This document shows positions 50,500-55,068 of a DNA stretch of 64,000 bases, one piece after another. A program made the translations under genes and the position numbers. Position 1 is the first letter of the stretch. Every line of letters begins with the position of its first letter. The notes beneath the pieces are model-generated. The model saw only the letters and a list, made by a program, of their open reading frames with translations. It ran no database searches and had not been told where the DNA came from. The stretch spans positions 2,976,001 through 3,040,000 of the forward strand of contig NZ_CP036278.1 of assembly GCF_007748035.1 (NCBI RefSeq), in the 5' to 3' direction. This stretch comes from Aeoliella mucimassa. Its GTDB lineage: Bacteria; Planctomycetota; Planctomycetia; Pirellulales; Lacipirellulaceae.

Positions 50500-51954
50500 A
50501 TGCCCCACACCATCGTAATTTTCGGCGCTTCTGGCGATCTGACGAAGCGCAAGTTGGTTCCCGCGTTGTATCAACTGCATCGCAAGGGGCGGCTTCCCGA
50601 AGAGACGCGCGTAGTGGGGTTCTCGCGGACTGAATTCTCGCACGACCAGTGGCGTGAGGCGCTCACCGAGAGCACCGAGAAGTTCGCCGGCAAGAAGTTC
50701 GAACGCGAAACGTGGGATGAGTTTGCCAAGAGCATTTACTACCACCCGGGCGATATTGGTAATCGCGACGATTTTGTTACGCTAAGCGAGTTTCTCGACG
50801 AACTCGAGGGCAAAGTCGAGAGCGAGCGGGTGTACTATCTGTCGACCGCTCCCCGTTTCTACGGGCCGGCCGCCGAGATGCTCGGCGCGGTCGGGCTGTC
50901 GATGGAAAACAACGGCCCCCGCCGAATCGTGATCGAAAAGCCGTTCGGCACCGATGGCGAAAGCGCCAGCAAGCTGAACGACGTGGTCCATAGCGTGTTC
51001 AACGAACAGCAGGTGTACCGCATCGATCACTATCTCGGTAAAGAGACCGTGCAGAACCTGATGATCCTGCGGTTTGCGAATTCCATCTTCGAACCGATCT
51101 GGAACCGCAACTACATCGATCATGTCCAAATCACCGTGGCCGAAGAAGTCGACATCGGCAGCCGCGCAGGCTACTACGAAACTTCGGGCATCATCCGCGA
51201 TATGTTCCAGAATCACATTCTGCAACTGCTGATGATCACTGCCATGGAAGCACCCATTCGGTACGCGGCCGATCCGGTTCGCGACGAGAAGGTCAAGGTG
51301 CTGCACGCAGTGCGACCGATGACCGAAGAGATGCTCACCGCCGATACGTTTCGTGGGCAGTACGATGGCTACCTGAACGAGAAGGACGTGGCCTCCGACA
51401 GCCAAACCGCCACGTTCGCGGCGATGAAGTTGTGGATCGACAACTGGCGCTGGCAAGGCGTGCCGTTCTACCTGCGGAGCGGCAAAGCGATGAGCTGCCG
51501 CACCACGCAGATCGTGATCCAGTTCCGCGAGCCGCCGCACATGCTGTTTGATTCGTGCAAGACTCGGCGGTGCGAATCGAATCGCCTAGTCATCCAAGTG
51601 CAGCCGGCCGAAGGCATTCAGATGCACTTCCAAACCAAGGTGCCGGACGCAGGCATGCGGATGCGCCAGACCGATCTCGATTTCCGCTACGATCGCGAGT
51701 TCCATGGCGTGATGCCCGAAGCGTACGAGCGGCTGCTGCTCGATGCGTTGGAAGGCGACGCCAGTCTGTTTGCTCGTGCCGACGAAGTGGAAGCCGCCTG
51801 GGCGATTTGCGACCCGATTCTCAACCATTGGGCCACCAAGAGCCAGCCGCCGGTCTACACGTACGAACGCGGTTTCTGGGGGCCGATGGAGTCGACCGAG
51901 TGGATGCGAGAAACCGGCCGCGAGTGGTTCGACACTTGTCCGGTGCTGCAGTAA
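50500..51954 (+). CDS. zwf: Glucose-6-phosphate 1-dehydrogenase
   Basis: Zwf oxidises glucose 6-phosphate to 6-phosphogluconolactone with NADP, the entry step of the oxidative pentose phosphate pathway. The 484-aa protein starts with the nucleotide motif IFGASGDLTKRKL and has the active-site signature YRIDHYLGKETVQNL with the catalytic His, plus VIEKPFGTD and the C-terminal HWATKSQPPVYTYERGFWGP. It lies 101 bp after the SDR gene. The preceding gene set (gnd, SDR) supports a joint pathway role. Confidence 0.98.
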   Translation: MPHTIVIFGASGDLTKRKLVPALYQLHRKGRLPEETRVVGFSRTEFSHDQWREALTESTEKFAGKKFERETWDEFAKSIYYHPGDIGNRDDFVTLSEFLDELEGKVESERVYYLSTAPRFYGPAAEMLGAVGLSMENNGPRRIVIEKPFGTDGESASKLNDVVHSVFNEQQVYRIDHYLGKETVQNLMILRFANSIFEPIWNRNYIDHVQITVAEEVDIGSRAGYYETSGIIRDMFQNHILQLLMITAMEAPIRYAADPVRDEKVKVLHAVRPMTEEMLTADTFRGQYDGYLNEKDVASDSQTATFAAMKLWIDNWRWQGVPFYLRSGKAMSCRTTQIVIQFREPPHMLFDSCKTRRCESNRLVIQVQPAEGIQMHFQTKVPDAGMRMRQTDLDFRYDREFHGVMPEAYERLLLDALEGDASLFARADEVEAAWAICDPILNHWATKSQPPVYTYERGFWGPMESTEWMRETGREWFDTCPVLQ

Positions 51955-51979
51955 ATGCCGGTTTCGTAATCGTCCCGGT

Positions 51980-53376
51980 TTAGCAGGTAACTCGGCGACG
52001 CTGCGCGCAACCGACAAGCACCATTAGGCCGAATGCCAGGACCAGCGACGAAGGCTCCGGCACCGCTGTCATCCGCCCGCCGGCGAGCTTTGATTCGCCG
52101 AAGTGTTGCTTCCACACCTCGTACTGGCCCAGTCCAATGGTGGATGTCAGCGTGTCGTTAGGGAGCGTGCCGGCTGCGGCCCCGAAATTGTCGCGCCAGA
52201 CAACGTAGTCGGCCAGGTCGACGAGGCCATCGTTGTTGAAGTCGCCAGGCTGTAGCGCGGCATTCGCGGTGTCGAGCAGCGCCCGGGCGACCGCGGCTTG
52301 TTCGTTAAGGTGCCACTCGGTGAGCGTCTCGGTCAGCGGACCACCCCGCCCCCAGAATAGCTCGTAGTGTCCGTTCTCGTCCTGCTTGTTGTCGTGCAGC
52401 CATTGCATGGCTCCCTGCACCTTGGTGAGCCAGTAGGGATTGTTCTCGGTCAGGTACAAATCGTTGAGGGCTTCGACGAGCTCGAACGCCCAGTAGCCTT
52501 CGTCTCCCATCGCTCCGGTGGAGGAGTCAAAAAACCGCGTGAGCGAAGCCGAGGCAACTACCTTGGCATCTCGCAGGTACGCGCGAGAACCGGTCGCGTG
52601 GAACAACTCCAGATTGGCCGAGATGCCGATGCCAGTTGCATTGACGATATCGACTCCGCGAGCTTCCATTGCGTCGATGTTGTAGCCTTGGTGGTAGGTT
52701 CCACTGCTAAGCTGCACGTGAGTGTTGGCCCACTCCACTAAACGCTCGGCATCTTCCAGGTAGTCGGACTCGCCGGTGATCTGGTAGAGCATGGCTCCCG
52801 CGCGGGCGGCTTGCAGCGTCGACACGGTGTCTTTGGATTCCTGCGAGCCTTCGCGAAAGTAAATGCCGCCGCCGGCGCGGTCGTCTTCGCCCGACAGTAC
52901 AAAGTCGTAGGTCTCGATTGCCCGATACAAGTAGACCGCCTCGCCGGTCAGCTGGTAGGCTTCCGCCAGCGATACCACCAAGTGTCCATTGTCGTCGTAA
53001 AATCGCTCGGCCCCGCACCCGAGCGGTAGCCGTTGCTCCAGTATTCACGACGAAGCTGATCGGAGTACGCCCGCAGCACCGGCTCGTAGGTCGTAGGATC
53101 GAGCTGGGTGAGCGAGTTGAGCATGCGAAACTGCGTGTTCGCGGGCCATACAAACGACGAACCATAGATCCCACCGGTCTGGTTGCCGGAGAGGGTTGCC
53201 GTTTCGGCGTACAGACTCGAGCGATTGATGCGCAGCGTCGACTCGATTTCGCTGGCGACTTCGCGACCCCAGTCAAGCAAGTCGTCGGCTTCCACCGCTA
53301 TGGCTGGCGGAGTTATTAGCCAGCAAGTAAATACGAAGAACCAGACGAGCTGGTAAGCGCGTGCCATCGGTGCCAT
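51980..53376 (-). pseudogene. GH76-like mannanase with dockerin-like and PEP-CTERM tail, frameshifted
   Basis: The gene is read in two frames. The N-terminal part (from 53376: signal peptide, QLVWFFVFTCWLITPP and a GGIYGSSFVWPANTQFRML segment) breaks out of frame at the CCCC run 53011-53014. The C-terminal part continues in another frame from FYDDNGHLVVSLAEAYQLTG to 51980. Adding one base to the run restores a single reading frame of about 465 aa. FYDDN is the Asp-Asp catalytic pair of GH76 (alpha-1,6-mannanase-type). The end has a planctomycete dockerin-like GDFNNDGLVDLADYVVWRDNFG and a PEP-CTERM tail VPEPSSLVLAFGLMVLVG. It is a recent pseudogene, a phase-variable gene or a sequence error. 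Confidence 0.8.
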
Positions 53377-53529
53377 CTCTCTGTCCGTGCCTGAGGACTG
53401 GAGGAAGCTCGCAACGATCAGCGGGGCCGGCCTCAGGCGTGTAACTGCTATTCTACCTCGCCTGTAGAGTCGACACAATAAATGGCCATGCGCACGGGTA
53501 GCCGAAGCAGCGTGCGACATCGCGGGTTG

Positions 53530-54273
53530 CTAGGCTGCTTGGCGGGATTCGCGATCGCTGGGCGAGTCGGTACTAAAACCCAGTTCCGCCCGGGCTTGCT
53601 CGTTCAGCCGGTCCATCGCCGCTTGGGCCTTGTCGACATACTCGCGAAGCTCGTCGGTCGACAAACCGTCGGGCACGTAGATCGGCTCTCCGGCAATCAG
53701 TACGATGGTGGAGAATGGCTTGGGGATAATCAGGTCCGACCAGCTTCCCTTCCATCGCCAGCACCGGGAGCAATCGAAGGCGGTTGGCACAATCGCCCGC
53801 CCGCTGCGCGAAGCGAGATAGACGATGCCCATGCTCATCTTGCGGTTCGGGCCGCGTGGTCCGTCGGGGGTGATCACCAGATGGCGGGTGCCGGTCGCGT
53901 CGAGCAGTCGGCGAATGGCACCAGTGCTGATGCGATTGGTCGAGCCCCGCACTGCTGGCACGTTGCGCCAACGAATCACTTGGGCGACGAACGAGCCATC
54001 GGAGTGCTGGCTAGTGAGCGCGGTAGTGCAGCGATGCTTGCCGCCGAACACCGGCATCACCATCGTGTCGTGCCACACCGAATACAAATACCGCTCCTGC
54101 AAATCCTTCGCGTAAGGATTTGTGTTCGGCGTACCGGTAATCAGTCGGTGCCGTAGCGTTCGAAACAGCAACCATAAGGCCGAAGCGAACAGAAAGCCAC
54201 CGATCGAAGTGAGTAGTGAGGATTTGATTCTCAGTGGAATATCTCGGCCGTAGGAGGGAGCGAACGGCCGCAA
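53530..54273 (-). CDS. DUF374-type lysophospholipid acyltransferase-like protein
   Basis: This 247-aa protein has a hydrophobic N-terminal segment (SSLLTSIGGFLFASALWLLF) and the DUF374 pattern related to lipid A biosynthesis acyltransferases: VWHDTMVMPVF with the catalytic-type His, VRGSTNRISTGA, and VITPDGPRGPNRKMSMG. It is thus likely a membrane-associated acyltransferase for the outer-membrane lipid A or phospholipids. The exact acceptor is unknown. The start at 54273 is a reasonable family start. It is read in the same direction as the DUF2071 gene upstream, with a 42-bp gap. Confidence 0.85.
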   Translation of the reverse strand: MRPFAPSYGRDIPLRIKSSLLTSIGGFLFASALWLLFRTLRHRLITGTPNTNPYAKDLQERYLYSVWHDTMVMPVFGGKHRCTTALTSQHSDGSFVAQVIRWRNVPAVRGSTNRISTGAIRRLLDATGTRHLVITPDGPRGPNRKMSMGIVYLASRSGRAIVPTAFDCSRCWRWKGSWSDLIIPKPFSTIVLIAGEPIYVPDGLSTDELREYVDKAQAAMDRLNEQARAELGFSTDSPSDRESRQAA

Positions 54274-54315
54274 AACTACACTTCCCGCACAATGATAGCA
54301 ATATCAATTGGCCGG

Positions 54316-55068
54316 TTAAGGGGAATTGCTAGCAACCTCGGTCGCGGGGCAGCAGAGGCTCTCCCGGCTCTGCCATTGGTGGTAGATACCACGCATCAAG
54401 AGCGCGCAGTCAAACTCAGTCGAGCCAGGGGGAAATCGCTGCTCGTCCTCGAAAAAGCTGCTCTCTACGCGCTCGACCGCTAGCGGTTCGACCTGCCAGT
54501 TACTGCACCGCAGCTCAAGCCCGTCGTACTGGCCGGTGGTCGCGGTGTCGGAATACCCCAGTGATCCTGCTTCGAAGAAGGCCGAAGCCGCCTCGAGGTC
54601 CTGGAACACCGATTCGGCGGGCAGCTCGCGAACCACTCGTCCGACCACGGCCACATGGGCTGCGTGGTCGTCGCTGGTGAACTCCACCGAAAAGTGGTCG
54701 CTCGACTCCTGCACGCGAAAGCTGCCATGGTGATGAATGCCGGGAAACAAGGTTCCCCCCGCCCAGGCGTTGAGTCGCGAGTCGGTATCGCGGCGGGGTA
54801 TGTAGACCCCCTGCTGGGTTTGGCCATTGAGGTCCCACTCGACCGCGATGCGATGGGCCGCGTTCTCGGAGCGGATGCCGACCGGCAACCGGAGAAACGC
54901 GGGTCGGATTTGCTTCAAGCGGATCAGGCAGATGCCGCCGATCGCGTAGCCATCGACCAGCTGAGGGCGAAACGGCGGCGGCAACACCCGCTGCATCACT
55001 GCCGGATCGCAGCGATAATTGGCTAAAATCCGCCGGTCGATGATGCCTTGGATCGTTGGGATTCGCAT
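54316..55068 (-). CDS. DUF2071-like protein
   Basis: This 250-aa protein resembles DUF2071 (acetoacetate-decarboxylase-like fold) with the start RILANYRCDPAVMQRVLPPPFRPQLVDGYA typical of that group. The function is unknown; members bind small molecules in a beta-barrel. It is upstream of the acyltransferase gene on the same strand and may be co-transcribed with it. No signal peptide is seen, so it is cytoplasmic. Confidence 0.78.
   Translation of the reverse strand: MRIPTIQGIIDRRILANYRCDPAVMQRVLPPPFRPQLVDGYAIGGICLIRLKQIRPAFLRLPVGIRSENAAHRIAVEWDLNGQTQQGVYIPRRDTDSRLNAWAGGTLFPGIHHHGSFRVQESSDHFSVEFTSDDHAAHVAVVGRVVRELPAESVFQDLEAASAFFEAGSLGYSDTATTGQYDGLELRCSNWQVEPLAVERVESSFFEDEQRFPPGSTEFDCALLMRGIYHQWQSRESLCCPATEVASNSP

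Follow-up and report, generated by a model that had tools for sequence, protein, structure and literature searches.

The gene for a secreted GH76 enzyme in Aeoliella mucimassa Pan181T has probably been disrupted by a loss-of-function mutation of very recent origin, for which a 4 nt deletion is the simplest form; from the sequence, we put the probability of this explanation at roughly 0.6. The gene was found in the window, the 64,000 nt stretch of contig NZ_CP036278.1 (positions 2,976,001 to 3,040,000) analysed here, where reading of the sequence and of its open reading frames (ORFs) placed it on the minus strand, split between two frames, at window positions 51980–53376. Its features are as follows.

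52948..53376, minus strand: frame A, the 5′ part of the GH76 gene, with the start, a signal-peptide-like leader, the N-terminal catalytic domain to GYRSGAG, 20 out-of-family residues and a stop
51980..53014, minus strand: frame B, the remainder of the GH76 catalytic domain, followed by what we take to be a dockerin-like segment and a PEP-CTERM-like tail
53005..53015, minus strand: the frame-break site including a C4 run, located from the sequence, relatives, a profile and the change of frame in tblastn
52991..52996, minus strand: codons of the Asp-Asp pair (YDDN), located by alignment with the GH76 catalytic pair

One GH76 gene in two frames

The start codon of frame A is the ATG at 53376 or the next one, at 53367, and the frame ends at a stop codon at 52948–52950. 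Its leader is hydrophobic and, judged by eye, resembles a signal peptide. As an earlier sequence-only reading had described, frame A runs through GYRSGAGP and the family sequence continues in frame B, which carries FYDDNGHLVVSLAEAYQLTG, reads GAERFYDDNGH and is open down to a stop at 51980. The CCCC run reported in that reading at 53011–53014 is present on the plus strand and, as the gene is read from the minus strand, a point that had been omitted, is GGGG in the coding sense. The Asp pair is approximately five codons downstream of the run. The proposed length of about 465 aa is correct if one base is counted in (53376 to 51980 is 1397 nt).

The frame A product is 142 residues long and lacks the active site. 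Frame B includes no ATG, GTG or TTG upstream of the Asp pair, so a complete enzyme should not be made. The first potential start in frame B is a TTG at 52981, and as this is already past the pair, re-initiation there would give no active or secreted enzyme.

A subfamily profile was built from six relatives, with the window sequence excluded. It matched frame A over profile positions 20–135 (E 2.0e-39) and frame B, in another frame, over positions 134–478 (E 2.6e-149). The two matches meet at genome positions 3029002–3029011 (window 53002–53011), confirming that the frame break is real and lies where it had been proposed. Six matches scored better (one each in genomes G005, G001, G009 and G018, and two in G021), and each of these is in one open frame; the stops flagged within the G001 and G018 matches are the last codons of those genes. 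Judged by these matches, the frame break is beyond chance, and frames A and B are one GH76 gene. Thus, while the close relatives examined have one open frame, the window gene does not encode a complete catalytic domain in a single frame, and its frame is disrupted relative to intact homologs, as in a pseudogene.

Family assignment and catalytic residues

Frame B matched PF03663 with an E value of 4.2e-20 (73 bits; cut-off 25.9). Frame A alone returned no Pfam match at 0.001, though it is matched by the subfamily profile. When frame B was compared with the sequences of solved GH76 structures, the best match was BT2949 (4v1r; E 3.6e-33), the name given to this entry in PMC4321491 and PMC9213526. 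The YDDN of frame B aligned with RYYDDN and RFYDEN in the solved structures. GH76 catalytic residues are usually two adjacent aspartates, D124/D125 in BcGH76 (PMC9213526), and the same pair and a D-E variant are discussed for BT2949 in PMC4321491. Both the GH76 identity and the catalytic Asp pair of the sequence-only reading are therefore supported. The window gene resembles the GH76 endo-alpha-1,6-mannanases (PF03663; BcGH76/Aman6, ShGH76 and BT2949) in the frame B match and the aligned Asp pair, but differs from them in not being in one frame and in having the C-terminal dockerin-like and PEP-CTERM-like tail. The enzyme would be a mannanase by family only.

A second, distant GH76 gene, which is intact and does not include a dockerin-like tail, is present elsewhere in the genome (L001; G000:C1:4471311-4472411) and shares 36% identity with frame B. 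The C-terminal segment of approximately 85 residues in frame B (about 52000–52250; PGDFNNDGLVDLADYVVWRDNFG ... GQYEVWKQHFG) recurs widely. Frame B had at least 10 to 37 matches in each of 36 genomes of the same family, and most of the matches listed fall in this segment.

Within 1.5 kb of the ortholog of the DUF374-like neighbour in the same-genus genome G001, an RNA-binding-protein-like ORF was found, while the ORF list for the same 1.5 kb included neither a GH76 gene nor zwf. Synteny was therefore uninformative. A repeat of approximately 430 bp, 88% identical and apparently non-coding, was seen elsewhere in the genome that contains the window (L151:14351-14780 and L153:6403-6827).

Size of the lesion

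To size the lesion, we took distinct open frames of at least 250 aa and measured the spacing between the final GY or GF and the last residue of [YFW][YFW]D[DE]N. This gave 25 rows. One is the window gene itself, read in frame B, where there is no GY, and the remaining 24 are intact relatives. The 122 loci fetched for other purposes (L101–L222) were excluded, and six more distant GH76 loci (L033, L034 and L042–L045), which share 22–27% identity with the subfamily in the main alignments, fall outside the count because the motif or anchor is absent. In the 24 intact relatives the spacing is 16–19 codons, with a minimum of 16 (48 nt). A 16-codon spacing was found in 8/24, which are all eight same-family members of the subfamily of the window gene. 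Spacings of 17 and 18 codons were each seen once, in L069, from another family of the order, and in the intact paralog in the genome of the window, respectively, and 19 codons in 14.

The corresponding stretch in the window is 44 nt. Against at least 48 nt in the relatives, the deficit is therefore at least 4 nt, not 1, and a tblastn search across the break with the same-genus ortholog (from G001) gave an offset of −4 nt. As one 4 nt deletion from a 16-codon spacing accounts for both the frame and the length, it is the simplest event. Loss of one base would leave 15 codons, a spacing seen in none of the 24 relatives, and would also need a separate in-frame loss of 3 bases. The lineage could, however, have had an unsampled 15-codon spacing, in which case the lesion is a single base. 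The proposal that one base was lost from the C4 run thus holds for the position of the break, at the run, and is probably wrong on its size, given the 4 nt deficit relative to the relatives. A homopolymer beside a frame break may not be its cause, and the length of the segment in relatives is what sizes the lesion.

Two relatives share GYRSGAG (L005 and L006), and in these the five codons after the Ser are GGGGCCGGCGCCGGC or GGCGCCGGGGCAGGG. The L005 DNA at the position of the break is G/C-only and that of L006 nearly so (one A), and both are Gly-Ala near-repeats. Such a near-repeat is a plausible slippage site. We infer that replication slippage in a G/C-rich GGN-GCN near-repeat encoding Gly-Ala may have removed 4 nt in a single event, which would be present in the cells, and that ribosomes on frame A would then halt after 142 residues, leaving no complete enzyme.

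Constraint on the two parts of the gene

Unique amino acid changes in the window gene and in its same-genus ortholog were counted using two outgroups. Before the break there were 4 in the window gene and 9 in the ortholog (chi-square 1.9), and after it 22 and 19 (chi-square 0.2). At 61 columns that are invariant in nine other aligned sequences, the window gene differs at two, both conservatively (F to Y and E to D). When the relatives were put through the same test, 8/9 differed at 1–3 of 60–62 columns, whereas for the most distant relative the figure was 14 of 73. NG86 dN and dS were 0.43 and 1.78 upstream and 0.30 and 1.50 downstream, with dS near saturation. Neither the relative rates nor the invariant columns revealed a further lesion in either part. 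As both parts are intact and have evolved no faster than the same-genus ortholog, the lesion is either very young or a sequence error. By these measures, normal constraint on the gene either persists today or was lost only very recently.

In having a single frame break where the homologs in relatives are intact, the window gene is like recent bacterial frameshift pseudogenes, but unlike them it shows no further decay yet and is known from the deposited sequence. Scans of genome contigs with protein and DNA patterns found no other genome of A. mucimassa, though the window's own genome was possibly left out of them.

A possible assembly or consensus error

The main alternative is that the gene is intact in the cells and that one or more bases at the break are missing from the deposited sequence. 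We consider this unlikely, though a real possibility. The lack of decay in either part of the gene is equally expected from an assembly error, and the window gene resembles homopolymer-type long-read assembly errors in that a gene otherwise under constraint is broken at a G/C run. However, the run is short (4) and the deficit is 4 nt, and homopolymer miscounts are typically of 1 nt.

To assess the rate of such breaks, we sampled 40 genome stretches of 20 kb each together with the window, 864 kb in all, and compared this sample, which has modest power, with ORFs taken from G001 and G021, from other loci and from the genome itself. A homolog was available for 145 (216.8 kb) of the 693 ORFs of at least 100 aa; the 145, which may include GH76 frame B, contain 782 G/C runs of exactly 4, and no other frame break was accepted in them. 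The stricter of two assays returned two sites in the 864 kb, the GH76 gene and L124. When the frames at L124 were read, with the genes named by eye, the site proved to be simply the junction of two neighbouring genes, one acyl-carrier-like and one trpA-like. The looser assay returned 15 sites in the genome (G000), namely two at the GH76 locus, of which one lies on the opposite strand and stems from an antisense ORF, the L124 site, and a further twelve. The twelve were not counted as breaks, a decision made by eye on the seven queries behind them and not site by site. On inspection by eye, six of the seven appear to be spurious ORFs that cover repeats or antisense frames, and the seventh, a lipoprotein-like ORF, gave weak pieces (57 and 34 bits). 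Elsewhere the looser assay listed 16 candidate sites in G001 and 7 in G021, which were not vetted singly.

Genome-wide, 154 family matches were found (55 sulfatase, 15 PSD1 and 84 SBP_bac_10), and adjacent partial matches in different frames were seen for one gene, with lone partial matches outside the count. This gene, a PF00884 sulfatase on the minus strand (L221; G000:C1:6232604-6233849), loses its frame at the G7 run that follows GFQGG, through a slip or a sequencing error. The genome sequence therefore holds at least one classic homopolymer frame break, and errors or slips of this type exist in it, which favours an error in the GH76 gene as well. A 4 nt deficit at a 4-base run nevertheless differs from the long-run homopolymer signature of the sulfatase. 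One other planctomycete genome was sequenced using PacBio and Illumina (PMC5177795) and one verrucomicrobial genome using PacBio alone (PMC5303756); neither settles the method used for Pan181.

Possible phase variation or recoding

The sequence-only reading had offered three options, an assembly error, a fresh pseudogene and a phase-variable switch. Of these, the fresh pseudogene is the most consistent with the findings, and an assembly error is possible, as set out above. The third option, an on/off switch through slippage in the run, found no support and is the least credible of the explanations weighed here. The break does interrupt a secreted-enzyme gene within its first third, as might suit a switch. 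However, contingency loci have a hypermutable repeat tract, and here there is a run of 4, far below the usual contingency tracts. Runs of this length are commonplace, as the 864 kb sampled contain 3562 G/C runs that are exactly 4 bases long, and the deficit is 4 nt. The run-length comparison with relatives that had been suggested showed that the nearest ones have no repeat tract at the position of the break and are in one frame.

The full enzyme could also arise from the sequence as deposited through programmed −1 ribosomal frameshifting or some other kind of recoding. Frame B is at −1 relative to frame A, a GGG codon could slip back by one base and pair again on G-GGG, and both parts of the gene look constrained. 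Against this, the break (G GGG CCG) lacks an X XXY YYZ heptamer, a 96 nt segment that begins just ahead of the run folds no more stably than shuffled sequences (z 0.08), and in the close relatives examined a single frame spans the gene, so that the shift is not conserved. An Rfam search over window positions 51900–54400 returned no match at gathering scores. We regard recoding as very improbable. Lineage-specific recoding or a reversible slip at the very short G4 site might conceivably control the output of the secreted GH76 enzyme and would explain why the gene has not decayed; this, too, is a long shot.

Implications

We favour a very recent loss-of-function mutation in the GH76 gene. The frame break itself is ordinary, and its significance extends little beyond annotation. 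If it is a sequence error, the deposited record needs correcting. If the lesion is real, the type strain of A. mucimassa has one working GH76 enzyme fewer than its DNA suggests.
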